A stretch of 5,303 bases of DNA from Dehalococcoidia bacterium (lineage in GTDB: Bacteria > Chloroflexota > Dehalococcoidia > Dehalococcoidales > W498): contig JAUWEU010000057.1 of assembly GCA_030608125.1 (NCBI GenBank), forward strand, positions 1-5,303. The letters are read 5' to 3'. The position numbers were made by a program, and so were the translations under genes. The notes below the pieces were generated by a model, which saw only the letters and a program-made list of their open reading frames with translations, did not search any database and was not told the origin of the DNA. Of the stretch, positions 1 through 5,303 are shown piece after piece (the stretch's first letter is position 1; every line of letters begins with the position of its first letter).

Positions 1-53
1 GGCATAGCCCTTGAGGATACCCCTCAGGGGACGGTGTGGAAGCGTAAGCGATA
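1..53 (+). repeat. Dispersed repeat, copy 1 (head block)
   Basis: This 53-bp block aligns without gaps to 2744-2796, with 47 of 53 bases identical by hand count. The most conserved part is the end, around GTGGAAGCGTAAGCGATA (36-53). Both copies can form a small GC hairpin in the middle, here CCCC-TCA-GGGG, although the paired bases differ between copies. The block starts at base 1, so it may continue to the left of the window. It lies outside coding sequence in both places. Confidence 0.8.
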
Positions 54-95
54 ACCCATCGATTTATCACGCAAGCGAACTATAGTAAAGGGAGT

Positions 96-120
96 TTTAG
101 AGGGGCGTAGCCCCTCTAAA
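96..120. repeat. Perfect 11-bp inverted repeat (hairpin)
   Basis: TTTAGAGGGGC at 96-106 pairs perfectly with GCCCCTCTAAA at 110-120 across a 3-nt GTA loop. The stem is stable in RNA from either strand, but no run of T follows on either side, so it is not a classic intrinsic terminator. It lies between the head block (1-53) and tail block (251-275) of repeat copy 1 and has no counterpart in copy 2. It may therefore be a separate small palindromic element. Confidence 0.75.
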
Positions 121-250
121 GAAATTATCTTCCCCTTCCCCGGTAATGCAGAATGCGGCTGAGGTGCTAGCCTATGGAACAGGGGTGGTGCTTGAATAGA
201 TGAAGAGTTGAACTCCATCCTGTCCACCAAAGGGAACTTTCCCACACCGC

Positions 251-275
251 TACGCCTCTCAGTAACAAACCGCCC
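251..275 (+). repeat. Dispersed repeat, copy 1 (tail block)
   Basis: This 25-bp block matches 2843-2867 at 20 of 25 positions, sharing CCTCT-N-AGTAACA and a closing GCCC. It follows the head block in the same order and orientation in both places, which suggests the two blocks belong to one element. The gap between blocks is 197 bp here and 46 bp in the other copy. Confidence 0.55.
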
Positions 276-342
276 GAATGTGTAATGAGATACGGGGAAA
301 GGCGGTGGGTAAAGGTGGAAAAAGGTAAGAGTAAGGGGGGTA

Positions 343-371
343 TTGACCTTCCTCTAAACTTATGATATAGT
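343..371 (+). promoter_or_regulatory. Sigma70-type promoter for the DUF4870-lipoprotein pair
   Basis: A -35 box TTGACC (343-348) and a -10 box TATAGT (366-371) are separated by exactly 17 bp, and each differs from consensus at one position. Transcription would start near 378, giving a leader of about 25 nt that carries the AAAGGAGG ribosome binding site (387-394). No other element intervenes. This is a prediction from sequence pattern only. Confidence 0.65.
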
Positions 372-402
372 TACCTTCAATATGAGAAAGGAGGATTGAG
401 CA

Positions 403-759
403 ATGAGTGAAACCGAAGGTAAAACAAGCATGGGGATGGAGCCAAATGTGGCTGGATTACTGTGCTACGTGTTGGGTTGGCTAACCGGGTTGATATTTTT
501 TCTCATGGAAAAGGAAAACAAGTTCGTCCGTTTTCATGCCATGCAGTCTATAGTCGTCTTTGGTGCACTTACAGTGGTCAGCATCATTCTCGGCTTCATA
601 CCATTTACATTTACTCTTTGGATGGTAGCTTCGGTAATCAGCTGGCTCCTCTGGGTACTCACCTTAGTCCTGTGGATAATACTGATGATTAAGGCTTATC
701 AGGGGCAGAAATTCAAGCTCCCCTGGGCGGGTAATTTCGCCGAAAAGCAGGCTGGATAA
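403..759 (+). CDS. DUF4870 / Tic20-like small integral membrane protein
   Basis: This 118-residue protein sits in the cytoplasmic membrane. It has the layout of the DUF4870 (UPF0132, Tic20-like) family: a short polar N-terminus, three hydrophobic helices at about residues 15-34, 48-68 and 76-97, and a polar tail. The family signature is clear: N15-VAGLLCYVLGW in helix 1, the charged loop with EKENKFVRFHAMQS (36-49) before helix 2, and the tail IKAYQGQKFKLPWAG (96-110). Length is normal for the family. The biochemical role of bacterial members is unknown, and the resemblance to chloroplast Tic20 does not by itself imply protein import. The ATG start is well supported: AAAGGAGG ends 8 nt upstream. 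The gene is first in a likely two-gene unit with the lipoprotein 63 bp downstream. Confidence 0.88.
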   Translation: MSETEGKTSMGMEPNVAGLLCYVLGWLTGLIFFLMEKENKFVRFHAMQSIVVFGALTVVSIILGFIPFTFTLWMVASVISWLLWVLTLVLWIILMIKAYQGQKFKLPWAGNFAEKQAG

Positions 760-822
760 GGAGCTATAGTCTCGGAGAACCTTGGAACAATAGACTAAGT
801 AATTAGGAAGGGAGGAATCAAA

Positions 823-1293
823 TTGAAAAAAGTAATATCATTGGTGCTGGTAGTGGTCATGATGTTAGGCTGCATTGGTCTCGTCGCCTGTGGCGGAGGG
901 GATGCTGAAACCGCACCACCGTCCAACGGTGAGACAGTTCCTCCATCTAATGGAGAGCCGACGCCGTCAGAAGATGGTCTTACCTGGAATGACATGCCTG
1001 TATACCCCGGGGCTAATCGGATACAAGAAATGACCTGGACAATACCCTCAGAAGAGGGAGAATGGACACAGTTAGAGTGGCGCTATTATGAAACCGGAGC
1101 CAGCATTAGCACGGTGACTGATTTTTATAAATCCCAAATGCCCGGTAACGGCTGGGAGGAGATGTTTTGGATGGAAATGGAGGAGATGCAGTGGGGTTAC
1201 TACAGCAAGAATAACGAGCAGGATGTGGCTTGGGTGTGGATTGGCTCTGAGGAAGGTGAGACCGTTATCAGCCTCATGAGAGCTACTGAATAG
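823..1293 (+). CDS. Putative lipoprotein, Trp-rich acidic domain, function unknown
   Basis: This is a predicted 156-residue exported lipoprotein. It has a basic N-terminus (MKK), a hydrophobic core and a lipobox LVAC with the lipidated Cys at 23, then GGG. Residues about 27-52 are a disordered linker containing two PPSNGE repeats (32-37 and 40-45). The rest is a compact domain starting MPVYPGANR (58-66), with YYETGAS (88-94), DFYKSQMPGNGW (100-111) and a closing strand ETVISLM. It holds nine Trp in about 100 residues and is strongly acidic. The pattern of a VYPGA opening and a DFYK helix recurs in uncharacterised secreted proteins, but I cannot name a family or function. The start is TTG at 823, chosen because GGGAGG (810-815) lies 7 nt upstream and the signal peptide begins there. 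Two stop codons follow in tandem. It is probably co-transcribed with the DUF4870 gene. Confidence 0.85.
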   Translation: MKKVISLVLVVVMMLGCIGLVACGGGDAETAPPSNGETVPPSNGEPTPSEDGLTWNDMPVYPGANRIQEMTWTIPSEEGEWTQLEWRYYETGASISTVTDFYKSQMPGNGWEEMFWMEMEEMQWGYYSKNNEQDVAWVWIGSEEGETVISLMRATE

Positions 1294-1329
1294 TAGGAGA
1301 AACCTTGTAAAAGCCTTATGACCCCTTAA

Positions 1330-1731
1330 CTAAACGATTCGCCAATCTCTACAGCCTTGTTGAATAAGGGATAAGTATTCCGTTGAAGGCTGTGTTTCCT
1401 CTAATTGCCCGGATTTGATATAGGTTATGGCTTTGATAGGCTCACCATCTTCATCAAATACCGTGATATTAAATTTGGTGTAGTTACCGGGATAACCTTC
1501 GTAGCTATCCAAACGCCTTAAATCTCTGTCTGAGACTTCATAAATAGCTCCGAGAACCCTTTCTCCCCGGAAAGGCTTGATGCTGGCAACTCCGCCTCGC
1601 CACTGCCTAGACCAGCCGACAAACACCAGCTTGTAATTATGAAGGGTAGCTACAAACATAGGCTTGCTGTCTGGGCACTGTTCTAGCATTTGTTTTTTGT
1701 TGAGATTGGAACCATAGGCAAAATAATACAT
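1330..1731 (-). CDS. Gamma-glutamylcyclotransferase-like (AIG2/GGCT fold) protein
   Basis: This 133-residue cytoplasmic protein belongs to the GGCT/AIG2-like family. Known members release 5-oxoproline from gamma-glutamyl amines or amino acids; the substrate here is unknown. Hallmarks are the N-terminal substrate-loop motif YGSN (6-9), directly after MYYFA, and the acidic residue E78 in LDSYEGYP (74-81) at the place of the family's catalytic Glu. The C-terminal pattern PSTEYLSLIQQG (115-126) is also typical. Length is normal. The ATG follows the MscS stop codon by 9 nt, and there is no good ribosome binding site at the usual distance (the closest G-rich patch is about 20 nt away). Translation is probably coupled to the channel gene. 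It converges on the lipoprotein gene across a 36-bp gap that has no visible terminator. Confidence 0.87.
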   Translation of the reverse strand: MYYFAYGSNLNKKQMLEQCPDSKPMFVATLHNYKLVFVGWSRQWRGGVASIKPFRGERVLGAIYEVSDRDLRRLDSYEGYPGNYTKFNITVFDEDGEPIKAITYIKSGQLEETQPSTEYLSLIQQGCRDWRIV

Positions 1732-1740
1732 TGTTATTGC

Positions 1741-2613
1741 TTATTGTCCAGCCACCGACTGCCCCGGAGAGTTGCCAAAATAGACCTCGGTGTGGGGCCA
1801 GGGTATCTCTATCCCCTGCTCGTCAAACACCTTCTTAATCCTTCGCCTAAGCTCACCCATTACAGCCCACTGTTTGATGGGCTGAGTTTCGCCTACCACC
1901 TTAATGATGATTCCTGAATCTTCAAAAGCATCTACTCGAAGAAGCCAGGGAGTCTTTGATATTAGAAGTGGCGCCCAATCCGGGTCCTCAGCTAATTCTT
2001 CCCAGGTTTTCCTGATTATGGACATTACTCGGTCAAGGTCTTCTTTATAGGCCACGCTGATATTCAAATGGGCTCTGGACCACAGCTTGGTGTAGTTCCC
2101 AGTCACCCTGATTTCGCCGTTGGGAACAATATGTAGGGTACCATCAAGGTCTCTGAGAAGAGTTCTCCTGAGGTTAACTGCTTCTACCACACCGACCACA
2201 CTCGCGACCTTAATTACATCACCCACATTGTATTGATTCTCAATCATGATAATGAAGCCAGCGATGAGGTCTTTTACCAGACTCTGAGCGCCAAAGCCAA
2301 CAGCAATACCAACTACGCCAAATCCGACTATTAGAGCAGCAATGTCAATTCCCAACTCAGTAAGAACTAAGAATACGCCGATGACGATAATTACCACATC
2401 AATCATGCCCGTAAACAGTCGGGTCAATGTCGCCTTTCGTTTCTTGATTTCCAGTTCAGGCTGACCTTCCATCGTCTTGGCGAGTGTTCTCCCGATTGTT
2501 CTAGGGACTGTCTTCTTCAGAAGGACATAGGCGATTAGACAGAGGGCGAGGATAATTAGAATCTTGGTGCCGTGCTGTAACAGCCAATCTGTTATAGGTG
2601 TCCAATCAGTCAT
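1741..2613 (-). CDS. MscS-family mechanosensitive ion channel
   Basis: This 290-residue inner-membrane channel should open under membrane tension and release solutes during hypo-osmotic shock. Three hydrophobic helices lie at about 17-33, 68-86 and 90-124. The third contains the Gly/Ala-rich pore stretch GVVGIAVGFGAQSLVKD (99-115), typical of MscS TM3. It is followed by the beta domain (NVGDVIKV at 129-136, LHIVPNGEI at 160-168) and the cytoplasmic alpha/beta domain ending in GIEIPWPH (267-274). Length fits small MscS proteins. A longer frame opens at TTG 2631, but ATG at 2613 is preferred: GGGGAGG (2620-2626) sits 6 nt before it and would lie inside the coding region if TTG were used. It heads a unit with the GGCT-like gene 9 nt downstream. 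A promoter candidate lies at 2657-2685. Confidence 0.93.
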   Translation of the reverse strand: MTDWTPITDWLLQHGTKILIILALCLIAYVLLKKTVPRTIGRTLAKTMEGQPELEIKKRKATLTRLFTGMIDVVIIVIGVFLVLTELGIDIAALIVGFGVVGIAVGFGAQSLVKDLIAGFIIMIENQYNVGDVIKVASVVGVVEAVNLRRTLLRDLDGTLHIVPNGEIRVTGNYTKLWSRAHLNISVAYKEDLDRVMSIIRKTWEELAEDPDWAPLLISKTPWLLRVDAFEDSGIIIKVVGETQPIKQWAVMGELRRRIKKVFDEQGIEIPWPHTEVYFGNSPGQSVAGQ

Positions 2614-2619
2614 TCTGTA

Positions 2620-2626
2620 CCTCCCC
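2620..2626 (-). promoter_or_regulatory. Ribosome binding site that fixes the MscS start
   Basis: On the minus strand this reads GGGGAGG and lies 6 nt before the ATG at 2613-2611. It decides between that ATG and the in-frame TTG at 2631-2629, which has no upstream Shine-Dalgarno sequence. Confidence 0.8.
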
Positions 2627-2656
2627 GACAAGATTTAAACTGCTTGCTATATACCC

Positions 2657-2685
2657 ATTCTACGCTGACTGCTCTCTGGGGGCAA
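2657..2685 (-). promoter_or_regulatory. Sigma70-type promoter candidate for MscS-GGCT
   Basis: Read on the minus strand, a -35 box TTGCCC (2685-2680; 4 of 6 consensus bases) and a -10 box TAGAAT (2662-2657; 5 of 6) are spaced by 17 bp. The ribosome binding site follows about 30 nt later. It lies between repeat copy 2 and the gene. Pattern evidence only. Confidence 0.5.
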
Positions 2686-2743
2686 GAGGGGAAGCCAAGC
2701 AATGGCAGCTTGCCGATACCATCTGGGCTAAACCAGGTGAGTG

Positions 2744-2796
2744 GGCATAGCTCTGGAGGATAGCCGTCACGGGACGGCGTGGAAGCGTAAGCGATA
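2744..2796 (+). repeat. Dispersed repeat, copy 2 (head block)
   Basis: This block is 47/53 identical to bases 1-53 without gaps. It contains a perfect small hairpin, GCCGTC-ACGG-GACGGC, and ends with GTGGAAGCGTAAGCGATA. It sits in the 255-bp spacer between the stop of the trpD-like gene and the MscS promoter. The rest of that spacer holds other small inverted repeats (CATCTGG at 2720-2726 with CCAGGTG at 2733-2739; GGCAAG at 2681-2686 with CTTGCC at 2709-2714) and no gene. No intrinsic terminator with a T-run is visible after the trpD-like gene. Confidence 0.8.
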
Positions 2797-2842
2797 GTCT
2801 CTGGGGGTAAGTTATATGGCAAATGTAGCCTTTATTCTCAGT

Positions 2843-2867
2843 TACACCTCTTAGTAACAGTCTGCCC
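2843..2867 (+). repeat. Dispersed repeat, copy 2 (tail block)
   Basis: This block matches 251-275 at 20 of 25 bases and follows the head block in the same order. In this copy the block overlaps a small hairpin, GTTAC (2841-2845) pairing with GTAAC (2854-2858); copy 1 has one mismatch in the same stem. Confidence 0.55.
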
Positions 2868-2886
2868 TTTCGCCAATGCTAGCCGT

Positions 2887-3999
2887 CTATACCCGGGCTA
2901 ATAGATAATCGAGCCTGGCTAGTCCGGCTTCAGGACAGGAATTCTGTTCTTCTACCCATCGTCTCAATTTGGCAATTGCCTGACCAGATTCAATAGTTTC
3001 TCTGGCTTTGTTTATTCCTTCTTTGAAATCCCTTACTTTATCCATCAAGTACAGAATAGGCGCTGTGTTAAGACAGACAATATCACACTTCGGACCCTGG
3101 TCTTTGGCGCATAATATCCTGAGAAAATTCAGAGCTTCCTCCTCTATATTTGCCGATGGTAATAGGTCTTCATAGGTGGCACGTTGGATACCAAAATCTT
3201 CGGGGACAAGACTATAGTTAGTAATCCGCCCGTCTTCATGCAATTGTGCAATTTTCGTCTCACCGAGAGAAGAAATCTCATCCATGCCTTTACTGCCATC
3301 TGCGTTTAAACCGTGAACGACAAGGGCTCTCTTGTAGCCAATCTCTTTCATTAATCGGGCAACAGGTTTTGTCAATGCCTTAGAATAGACTCCTCTTACC
3401 CCGTATCTGGGCAGGGCAGGATTAGCCAGGGAAGCAGCAATATTAAGAATGGTGCCAAAGCGAATCTGTGATAAGATTCGGCCTAGGGCTTGAGGATGAA
3501 CCATAGGGCTCATGCCGTTAAAAATACCGATGCCTGCCTTTTCAATACTGCGTTTGACAATTTCCACATTACACTCCACATCAACCCCGAGGGCTTCAAG
3601 TATATCAACCGCTCCACAGGTGGAGGTAAGAGCTCTGGCTCCGTGTTTAGCCATGTAGATACCATTAGCCGCTGCCACTATAGCTGCCGCGGTGCTGATG
3701 TTGAATGTCTTTAATTCATCCATTCCGGTACCGCAGTTCTCAACCAAAGGCTCAGGTGTAAATGGGTTCACTTTCACTGTATCTAGTTCAAAAATGGCGT
3801 CCCAGCTTCCCGCAATCTCCTCCGGCGTTTCTCCCTTAGCCGTGAGGACTATTATGAAAGCTCCCTGTTGTAGGTCCGGTTGCTCATTCAGGAGCACCTG
3901 ATAATACATTTCCCTGGTTTCTTGACGGGTCAAGTTTCTCCCCCGTGCTACCTCAGACACTTTCTTGCCAAATTCCTTTAGCCTTTTATCGTCAAACAT
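2887..3999 (-). CDS. TrpD-like (anthranilate phosphoribosyltransferase family) protein, divergent, B12-regulated
   Basis: This 370-residue cytoplasmic enzyme belongs to the anthranilate phosphoribosyltransferase (TrpD) family, which transfers phosphoribose from PRPP to an aromatic acceptor. The helical N-terminal domain has KGETPEEIAGSW (55-66). The PRPP site follows: CGTGMDE (89-95, usual GTGGD), TFNISTAAA (98-106), then KHGAR (118-122), TSTCGAVDILEALGVD (125-140) and the acidic metal-binding GMDE (238-241). NTAP (311-314) matches the family's NAA. Two features are unusual: KHGAR replaces KHGNR, whose Asn contacts anthranilate in known TrpDs, and IAASLANP (187-194) replaces the usual LLGPLTNP. 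No other tryptophan genes are nearby and the operon has a cobalamin riboswitch, so I doubt a tryptophan role. A different aromatic acceptor is plausible but unproven. The ATG start is firm: AGGAGGT (4013-4007) lies 7 nt upstream. Its first codons are part of a 61-bp tandem duplication. Confidence 0.87.
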   Translation of the reverse strand: MFDDKRLKEFGKKVSEVARGRNLTRQETREMYYQVLLNEQPDLQQGAFIIVLTAKGETPEEIAGSWDAIFELDTVKVNPFTPEPLVENCGTGMDELKTFNISTAAAIVAAANGIYMAKHGARALTSTCGAVDILEALGVDVECNVEIVKRSIEKAGIGIFNGMSPMVHPQALGRILSQIRFGTILNIAASLANPALPRYGVRGVYSKALTKPVARLMKEIGYKRALVVHGLNADGSKGMDEISSLGETKIAQLHEDGRITNYSLVPEDFGIQRATYEDLLPSANIEEEALNFLRILCAKDQGPKCDIVCLNTAPILYLMDKVRDFKEGINKARETIESGQAIAKLRRWVEEQNSCPEAGLARLDYLLARV

Positions 4000-4044
4000 A
4001 TGTGTTACCTCCTAATTTAGAATTCTATTACCGCTACTTTCATG
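3984..4044 (-). repeat. 61-bp tandem duplication, unit with the live trpD start
   Basis: This unit is 53/61 identical to the adjacent unit 4045-4105, and seven of the eight differences are transitions. In minus-strand order it holds a relic of the dehydrogenase tail (ATG at 4043, reading MKVAVIEF then a stop at 4019-4017, against the true tail MKVVVTEF), the ribosome binding site and the first codons of the trpD-like gene. The dehydrogenase relic is not attached to any gene body. Confidence 0.9.
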
Positions 4045-4105
4045 TTTTATTGCTAAATATATGTATTACCTCCTTATTTAGAATTCTGTTACCACTACTT
4101 TCATG
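4045..4105 (-). repeat. 61-bp tandem duplication, unit with the live dehydrogenase end
   Basis: This is the partner of 3984-4044. It holds the functional dehydrogenase C-terminus and stop (4080-4078), a ribosome-binding-site copy (AGGAGGT, 4074-4068) and a decayed copy of the trpD start in which ATG has become ATA (4060-4058). The next bases (TTTAGCAATAAAA) still resemble the true start (TTTGACGATAAAA). Confidence 0.9.
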
Positions 4106-5118
4106 CCACTATGCTCCATCAGGTAATCAATCCCCTCATGGATTGCTTCTAATGATATTCGCTTGGTGACCAGCCAGTTAACATTTACTTGCCCCGAAGC
4201 CATAAGCTCAAGAGCCAAGCGATTTTGGTCTGCCGTGCAGCCGTAGGCTCCGACAAAGGTGATTTCCCGGTAATGGAGAAAGTTAGCATCAAAATGAAGT
4301 TGACTTTTCTCCGGTGGTAGACCTGAGAAAAAGCAAACCCGACCACGCGGCGCCAGAAGCTCCAAAATAGGGTACTCTATGGCAGAGTCTGGGCAAGCCA
4401 GCATGATTACATCAACTCCCCGACCTTCCGTTTCTTGCTTCACAACCTCCTTTAGATTCTCTTTAGAGACATTGATTAGACGAGAGGGTTCTGCCGCGAT
4501 GGACATCATAATCCGCTTTAGAGACCTTTCTGCAAGTAGAATCTGCTTAACTCCTTTAGCCCGGGCTAGCATAGTTTGTAAACAACCCATTGGACCAGCC
4601 CCCAGGATAAGCACCACATCTTTACTGTCTAGGCGCACAAGCTCCAGACCATTGAGACAACAGGCTAGAGGCTCAGCAAAAGTAGCTTCCACGAAACTAA
4701 GTCCAGACGGAATCAGATTGACAGCTCCACAGGCTACACTTTGGGCAGGTACGGCCAGATACTGGGCAAACCCACCGTGATGGGTAAAACCAAGAATGCC
4801 TATGTGGTCACATTGATTGGGCGCTCCTCGCTGGCAGGCAGGGCAGCTATTACAACTTATCCCGGGCGCAATCTGCACCCGTTCTCCACTTCTAAAGGGA
4901 ATATCACCGGTACCAGTTTCAATCACCACTCCAGCAATTTCATGACCCAGAATACGTGGGTAGATTAGGTCCCGCTGCCCGTGCCTAAACATCTTTATAT
5001 CTGTAGCACAGATTGAGCATGCTTCCACTTTGACAACAAGCCCTTTTGCCGGGGGTTCAGGGTCAGGGACTTGGGTAATAACCAACTGACCGGGGGATTT
5101 CAACAACGCCGCTTTCAT
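4078..5118 (-). CDS. Zinc-dependent medium-chain alcohol/polyol dehydrogenase
   Basis: This 346-residue cytoplasmic oxidoreductase belongs to the zinc medium-chain dehydrogenase superfamily (sorbitol / threonine dehydrogenase-like branch), which oxidises an alcohol or reduces a carbonyl with NAD(P). The catalytic zinc ligands are visible as C37 in CSICATD (34-40), H59-E60 in GHE (58-60) and E149 in FAEP. The structural zinc cysteines are C89, C92, C95 and C103. The Rossmann nucleotide loop is GAGPMG (173-178), and the acidic E197 after the second strand favours NAD over NADP. Length is normal and the C-terminus MKVVVTEF is intact. The substrate cannot be read from sequence. The ATG is preceded by AAGGAG (5131-5126) with a 7-nt gap. 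It is the first gene after a cobalamin riboswitch and is followed, after 78 bp, by the trpD-like gene. Confidence 0.92.
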   Translation of the reverse strand: MKAALLKSPGQLVITQVPDPEPPAKGLVVKVEACSICATDIKMFRHGQRDLIYPRILGHEIAGVVIETGTGDIPFRSGERVQIAPGISCNSCPACQRGAPNQCDHIGILGFTHHGGFAQYLAVPAQSVACGAVNLIPSGLSFVEATFAEPLACCLNGLELVRLDSKDVVLILGAGPMGCLQTMLARAKGVKQILLAERSLKRIMMSIAAEPSRLINVSKENLKEVVKQETEGRGVDVIMLACPDSAIEYPILELLAPRGRVCFFSGLPPEKSQLHFDANFLHYREITFVGAYGCTADQNRLALELMASGQVNVNWLVTKRISLEAIHEGIDYLMEHSGMKVVVTEF

Positions 5119-5148
5119 AGCCTATCTCCTTAACAACTCGTTTATATT

Positions 5149-5185
5149 AAAAAAATCCCTAAACCAAAATCTGGTTTAGGGATTT
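5149..5185 (-). terminator. Intrinsic terminator of the riboswitch expression platform
   Basis: On the minus strand AAATCCCTAAACC (5185-5173) pairs perfectly with GGTTTAGGGATTT (5165-5153) across a 7-nt loop. The stem runs straight into a T tract, with seven T in total at 5155-5149. It lies between the B12 aptamer and the dehydrogenase ribosome binding site, about 18 nt upstream of that site. This placement is typical of a leader attenuator rather than the end of an upstream gene. Confidence 0.9.
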
Positions 5186-5202
5186 ACCATCTCCCTCAAA
5201 CC
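5173..5202 (-). promoter_or_regulatory. Antiterminator stem competing with the terminator
   Basis: GGTTTGAGGGA (minus strand, 5202-5192) can pair with TCCCTAAACC (5182-5173), the 5' arm of the terminator, with a single bulged G. Formation of this stem would prevent the terminator. The first arm also forms the 3' side of the P13 hairpin (5196-5203), so the two folds exclude each other. Confidence 0.75.
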
Positions 5203-5303
5203 TTTTTCCCGAAGGTCTGATTAATTTGTTGGCAGGTCTTCTGGCTTTTGGCTCCTCCTACTCCTTGAGTCCTTCCCATTTCGTTAAAACGAAACAGTGG
5301 CAT
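5196..5303 (-). ncRNA. Cobalamin (B12) riboswitch, 3' half
   Basis: Read 5' to 3' on the minus strand, the conserved landmarks of a cobalamin aptamer occur in order. GCCACTG (5301-5295) is followed by a variable hairpin TTTCGT/ACGAAA, then GGGAAGG (5277-5271), then the B12 box AAGCCAGAAGACCTGCC (5247-5231), which fits the known consensus. Next is a hairpin TCAGACCT/AGGTTTGA (5220-5213 with 5203-5196, one G-U pair) whose loop contains CGGG. This fits P13/L13, where the loop kisses a CCCG-type L5. The 5' half, with P1-P5 and L5, lies beyond the right edge, so the aptamer class and the kissing partner cannot be confirmed here. It should repress the dehydrogenase and trpD-like genes when cobalamin is bound. 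Confidence 0.92.

Follow-up and report, generated by a model that had tools for sequence, protein, structure and literature searches.

The stretch of DNA analysed here, hereafter the window, comprises 5,303 nucleotides (nt) of a Dehalococcoidia bacterium (contig JAUWEU010000057.1, positions 1 to 5,303, assembly GCA_030608125.1). Read in order, its minus strand opens with an aptamer of the cobalamin riboswitch family (RF00174, 5214..5303), of which the 3′ part is present; then follow an intrinsic terminator hairpin (about 5149..5185), adh (4078..5118), which encodes a zinc-dependent medium-chain dehydrogenase of 346 residues, and trpD′ (2887..3999), which encodes a TrpD-like phosphoribosyltransferase of 370 residues with an altered acceptor site. 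An earlier note on this DNA, made from the sequence alone, had described an alcohol dehydrogenase gene and a TrpD-family gene behind a B12 riboswitch, and the domains of both families were found in the two products (PF08240 and PF00107 in adh, PF00591 and PF02885 in TrpD′). Comparison with related loci revealed that adh-trpD′ is a conserved, riboswitch-linked cobamide module; the pair recurs across many anaerobic bacteria and archaea.

The riboswitch match runs from 5303 to 5214 on the minus strand, where the earlier note had placed it, and covers positions 106-189 of the Rfam model. It scores 34.1 bits (E 4.9e-6), over the gathering score of 31.5, with its 5′ end cut by the window edge. The nearest relatives of the window are two loci of Dehalococcoidia metagenome-assembled genomes (MAGs), L001 and L002, whose TrpD′ proteins are 93% and 90% identical to that of the window. 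At the matching position they carry full-length riboswitches of 107.1 and 106.2 bits, so in these relatives the covariance match holds with the 5′ half included. A complete riboswitch scoring 83.2-126.3 bits precedes the pair in 30 of the 35 distinct bacterial relatives (13/13, 5/8, 9/11 and, for L038, L132 and L136, 3/3; L131 repeats L011). All 30 lie on the adh strand, 49-137 nt ahead of the adh start. The five bacterial loci devoid of a riboswitch (L008, L015, L016, L064 and L069) all stand amid cobamide synthesis or uptake genes.

Folding of the leader and a stem scan located the window terminator 3′ of the aptamer, at about 5185-5149, as a 13-bp hairpin (AAATCCCTAAACC/GGTTTAGGGATTT) followed by a U-tract. 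The 95-nt leader folds with -22 kcal/mol and a z-score of -1.81, 9 of 200 shuffled sequences being equally good. The leaders of L001 and L002 align with that of the window and the hairpin is common to all three. A terminator-like stem was detected in 28 of 31 leaders (the window and 30 relatives) by a scan run without shuffled control, the stem of L044 being weak. The hairpin is likely to be the expression platform of the riboswitch. Two successive terminator-like hairpins follow the aptamer in the leaders of L012 and L106 and might sharpen B12 control. As judged from these leaders, adh-trpD′ would be controlled by a cobamide-binding riboswitch and repressed by B12, a direction of regulation that we infer: when cobamide is scarce, the empty aptamer would prevent terminator formation and allow adh-trpD′ to be transcribed, while binding of cobamide to the aptamer would halt transcription at the hairpin.

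Relatives of TrpD′ were collected by scanning genome contigs with a 30-row alignment; the best 80 of 192 were kept (23 bacterial and 57 archaeal by title) and were completed to 90 loci with ten from 151 Dehalococcoidales genomes. Thirteen of these 151 genomes carry TrpD′, three of which belong to loci of the first scan. A dehydrogenase gene lies within 600 bp of trpD′ and on the same strand in 88 of the 90 loci (74 in front, 14 behind); the two loci lacking it, L005 and L037, stop at a contig edge. The window protein carries the ADH_N and ADH_zinc_N domains together with the zinc ligands and the nicotinamide adenine dinucleotide (NAD) motif of the zinc-dependent medium-chain dehydrogenase/reductase (MDR) family. 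Candidate ligands of the catalytic zinc are C37, H59, E60 and E149, the structural-zinc cysteines are C89, C92, C95 and C103, and the dinucleotide motif GAGPMG is accompanied by E197, of NAD type; these roles are assigned by analogy with the MDR family. We aligned the window protein with those of 88 of 93 loci, leaving out L005, L010, L037, L045 and L075, in which the match was absent or short. C37, C89, C92, C95, C103 and the dinucleotide glycines are kept in 89/89 sequences, H59, E60 and E149 in 88 or 89 of them. Zinc and NAD motifs are common to adh and to known zinc MDR enzymes such as threonine 3-dehydrogenase, IolM and sorbitol dehydrogenase, but adh scores under all the NCBIfam cut-offs listed (best 172 vs 450 bits).

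TrpD′ forms a clade apart from canonical TrpD, with a support of 100/100 in a tree built without the short L113. Its PRPP (phosphoribosyl pyrophosphate) motifs are retained, while residues of the acceptor site differ from those of canonical TrpD (PF00591/PF02885, TIGR01245; structures 1zyk and 1zxy). GTGGD of TrpD is replaced by GTGMD (M in 90/91 TrpD′ against G in 17/17 TrpD), KHGNR by KHGAR (A in 84/91 and S in 7/91 against N in 17/17) and RT in the next helix by GT (G in 91/91 against R in 16/17). We take the asparagine of KHGN, for which the solved structures include an N138A variant, to be an anthranilate-site residue of TrpD, and likewise the arginine after the HP motif, for which R193 variants appear in structure titles. 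This arginine is absent from the TrpD′ alignments, but a 2-residue gap leaves the register unsure, and R174 of TrpD′, present in 91/91 sequences, could substitute for it. In the Dehalococcoidales genomes TrpD′ scores at least 415 bits, while canonical TrpD tops out at 263 bits.

The genomic context separates the two clades as well, cobamide genes in one case and trp genes in the other. Homologues of TrpC, TrpG, TrpE or TrpF, names that we gave by eye to clusters of neighbouring genes, were found within 5 kb in 0/90 TrpD′ loci; ten of these 90 have flanks of about 1.5 kb or less, and several of the 90 belong to short contigs. In 17 canonical trpD loci of the same order, which served as controls and were flanked, as L104-L112 are, by up to 1.5 kb of sequence, TrpC was found in 15/17, TrpG in 15/17, TrpE in 13/17 and TrpF in 13/17, and neither a riboswitch nor a cob gene nor adh in any (0/17). 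The absence of tryptophan genes remarked on in the window thus extends to related loci, none of which lies in a trp cluster. An ordinary anthranilate phosphoribosyltransferase serving tryptophan synthesis beside a chance neighbour, which is how most named database relatives of TrpD′ are labelled, is hardly credible in view of this context, of the separate clade with its acceptor-site changes, and of the canonical TrpD that 11 of the 13 Dehalococcoidales carriers possess besides. These results cast doubt on the label "anthranilate phosphoribosyltransferase" of those entries.

We then considered same-strand genes up to 3.5 kb away from the pair. CobT is found in 34/90 loci, 19 times as the archaeal type (TIGR00303) and 15 times as the bacterial type (TIGR03160). 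In the archaeal loci it stands beside the pair in 28/57, of archaeal type in 19 and of bacterial type in 9. That two unlike CobT families adjoin one and the same pair argues for a functional link. Counting any cob or BtuF/BtuC-like gene, 38/90 loci have such a neighbour, L044 and L079 being set aside since only a BtuD-like ATPase matched. The richest cluster, L064, contains CobU, CobT, CobS, a CobD-type aminotransferase, CobQ/CbiP, CbiB, the pair and BtuFCD-like genes; L008 groups an aminotransferase, CbiB, the pair and CobT; CobQ/CbiA-like genes flank the pair on both sides in L069; BtuFCD-like genes and CobU lie near it in L015 and L016. In L012, as in four Dehalococcoidales genomes (L107-L110, contigs of 1.7-2.1 Mb), CobT and CobS lie behind the pair. 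Cobalamin riboswitches also control B12-independent isozymes, metE and nrdD being examples given in PMC8620254, and the pair might accordingly be a B12-repressed substitute pathway, like metE or nrd genes, foreign to cobamide assembly. Clustering with CobT, CobS, CbiB, CobQ, CobU and BtuFCD-like genes makes this very unlikely; archaea show such clustering too, the link there being by position alone. The survey of homologues, with its conserved riboswitches, CobT and cob context and lack of trp clusters, supports the role in corrinoid metabolism that the earlier note had proposed.

A few other neighbours were recorded. Genes for radical S-adenosylmethionine (SAM) proteins stand by the pair or by CobT in L016 (2671-3390, Aquificota) and L021 (1080-2399, Methanolliviera), both called by Pfam, and in L045 (7475-8911, Methanomicrobia-titled), called by clustering; they possibly represent extra enzymes of the same pathway. 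A dihydropteroate-synthase-like gene lies directly upstream of the pair in L003 (7873-8736), with a gene of the same cluster near the pair in L072. In the Methanomassiliicoccales loci listed, dihydropteroate-synthase-like, LarA and TfrB-like neighbours form an opposite-strand cluster of their own. In L138, from a Dehalococcoides-like genome, a CobQ/CbiA-like gene (10407-11798) lies on the opposite strand about 3.4 kb past trpD′.

The window itself contains further features. The two open reading frames of the pair are separated by 78 nt, against 15 nt in L001 and 1 nt in L002, likely because of a tandem 61-nt duplication (3984..4105, minus strand, 87%) that includes the stop codon of adh and the region around the start of trpD′. 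A dispersed 53-nt repeat (89%) occupies positions 1-53 and 2744-2796, outside called genes, and its 18-base core had no exact match in the 139 fetched loci. Genes for an MscS-type channel and a gamma-glutamyl cyclotransferase-like protein lie at 1330-2631, and such genes also lie close to the pair in L001, on its downstream side, and in L002, on its upstream side.

In order to narrow down the step served by the pair, we considered the gene content of the carriers. CobT occurs in 12/13 Dehalococcoidales TrpD′ genomes, three of which had entered through TrpD′ matches, compared to 70/138 of the other Dehalococcoidales (Fisher p 0.003, not corrected for kinship), and in 13/17 other bacterial carriers. 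CbiD was detected in only 1/13 Dehalococcoidales carriers, the two MAGs nearest to the window being among the 12 that lack it, and was present in 23/32 other TrpD′ genomes. The pair thus occurs both with and without CbiD and mostly with CobT, which makes ring-building unlikely and a role in the nucleotide loop likely. CobT without TrpD′ is common (70/138); the pair is therefore an optional element, just as one would expect of a determinant of the base type. L064, which has all the named loop genes, leaves as remaining steps a phosphatase and a threonine kinase, which fit neither enzyme type, and the supply of the base. Finally, in the archaeal class of G013 (the Methanosaeta/Methanothrix locus L029), TrpD′ was found in 34/50 genomes of its order and, at E 1e-100, in 0/187 genomes of the class outside that order, a restriction to be expected of a base-specific trait.

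CobT is itself a phosphoribosyltransferase found in the same gene clusters as TrpD′, but it belongs to another protein family and uses nicotinate mononucleotide (NaMN); its domain PF02277 is absent from TrpD′, which shows PF00591 and PF02885 only, and it accompanies the pair in 34/90 loci instead of giving way to it. The CobT reaction leaves nicotinate, as stated in PMC9561151. TrpD′ might then act as a PRPP-dependent nicotinate phosphoribosyltransferase that returns the nicotinate released by CobT to NaMN, the CobT donor, which would agree with CobT being the commonest cobamide neighbour and with nicotinate and anthranilate both being aromatic carboxylates. We find such donor recycling improbable, because it leaves the dehydrogenase of 88/90 loci without a job and because 70/138 Dehalococcoidales devoid of TrpD′ have CobT. 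Another role, in remodelling or salvage, is suggested by the fold that TrpD shares with nucleoside phosphorylases (weak matches) and by the salvager-like lack of CbiD in 12/13 Dehalococcoidales carriers: the pair would degrade or re-use the ribotide of imported foreign cobamides, with TrpD′ releasing the base by (pyro)phosphorolysis and the dehydrogenase disposing of the sugar. This too seems unlikely, given that 23/32 other carriers have CbiD and can make their own ring.

On this basis, we are rather confident that the function of the pair lies in the metabolism of the cobamide nucleotide loop or lower ligand. The reading that we favour, with somewhat better than even confidence, is that adh and trpD′ encode a module of two enzymes, repressed by B12, which serves cobamide assembly at the level of the lower ligand (nucleotide loop); for a role specifically in base synthesis or tailoring we consider the chances evenly balanced. 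TrpD′ would transfer the phosphoribosyl group of PRPP to an aromatic or heteroaromatic amine other than anthranilate, and the NAD- and zinc-dependent dehydrogenase would oxidise (or reduce) the resulting intermediate. The pair would thus make or tailor a free base, which CobT would convert to the alpha-ribotide and CobS would join, as alpha-ribotide, to the corrin. We infer PRPP as substrate, the order of the two steps and the free base as product. The earlier note had suggested making or activating a lower-ligand base; making it is what we would still suppose, while activating it has lost likelihood, since 34 loci have the known activator, CobT, next to the pair.

Supply of the base, as proposed for the pair, is otherwise ensured by BzaABCDE or BzaF (anaerobic) and BluB (aerobic). 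Bza proteins are ThiC-like radical SAM enzymes and BluB is a flavin-destroying enzyme, and the pair has no sequence relation to either: the listed Pfam and NCBIfam matches of adh and TrpD′ include neither the BluB nor the ThiC-like Bza families. BluB over cut-off was found in 0/28 carriers. The pair may be the core of a third, oxygen-independent lower-ligand route, unrelated to BluB and the ThiC-like Bza enzymes, in which TrpD′ would link PRPP to an aromatic amine and the dehydrogenase would convert the adduct into an imidazole-fused, or even an altogether new, base in which C1 of the ribose is the bridging carbon. We put this forward tentatively, as a possibility that we hold with less than even confidence. 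Formimonas (G017, a record titled complete genome) has CbiD and CobT, and in this genome neither a ThiC/Bza-like match nor BluB over cut-off was found.

Several observations weigh against this interpretation. The pair has no same-strand cob or BtuF/BtuC-like neighbour up to 3.5 kb away in 52/90 loci, some of them on short contigs or with 1.5 kb of flank. The 52 include 11/11 loci titled Methanomassiliicoccus, -coccales or -coccaceae, whose link to cobamides therefore rests on homology. CobT was not found in the bacterial carriers G006, G009, G028 and G030. TrpD′ passes the NCBIfam TrpD cut-off (283.5 vs 199.05) and agrees with the TrpD family in model and fold. BzaB (TIGR04386) exceeds its cut-off in 3/30 carriers, and on this ground we rejected the idea that the pair straightforwardly replaces the bza genes. 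ThiC-family proteins were over cut-off in 25/30 and 13/14 carriers searched. Ten ThiC-like proteins were taken from the 32 that exceed the ThiC cut-off, and all passed as ThiC and none as BzaB (10/10 and 0/10); since BzaF is indistinguishable from ThiC with the NCBIfam families used, among which a BzaF model did not turn up, many carriers may possess a hidden Bza route. A last point comes from Dehalococcoides. The earlier note had tentatively mentioned a similar pair behind a B12 riboswitch in this genus, and L106, presumably from D. mccartyi 195, indeed has riboswitch, adh and trpD′. According to PMC4285132, D. mccartyi depends on an outside supply of corrinoids and of lower ligands, above all 5,6-dimethylbenzimidazole (DMB). 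Dehalococcoides-like carriers thus suggest that the pair alone gives no usable base there: in D. mccartyi, either a precursor is missing or the pair acts on the base in another way.

Purine was considered as the product but not retained: only 6/73 genomes in the order of Desulfosporosinus hippei, to which Desulfitobacterium presumably belongs, carry TrpD′. Purinyl-cobamide is known from Desulfitobacterium hafniense, and the purine of strain DCB-2 came from yeast extract, according to PMC6389850. Other carriers are related to organisms with distinctive cobamides. G192, a genome that we take to be Methanothrix soehngenii, shows the order CobT-adh-trpD′, and Koehler reportedly described 5-methylbenzimidazolylcobamide in this species in 1988. 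L136 has riboswitch, adh and trpD′, and its TrpD′ shares 97.8% identity with the counterpart in Dehalobacter sp. UNSWDHB; the Dehalobacter cobamide is reported in PMC11348799 to match none known. If the third route holds, the pair would make the base of the Dehalobacter cobamide and, if Methanothrix soehngenii indeed contains 5-methylbenzimidazolylcobamide, also the base of that cobamide.

The pair was not named in the titles and abstract openings searched, a search outside of which key Dehalococcoides and Dehalobacter papers lie, so that it may already be mentioned in print; in PMC8620254, trpD appears in a figure legend only. The lower ligand of a microbe decides with whom cofactors of the B12 type can be shared, including among the dechlorinating bacteria of groundwater clean-up. 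The pair provides a two-gene handle on the native cobamide of Dehalobacter, and likewise a handle on the source of the base in carriers such as Formimonas, which have neither BluB over cut-off nor ThiC/Bza-like genes.

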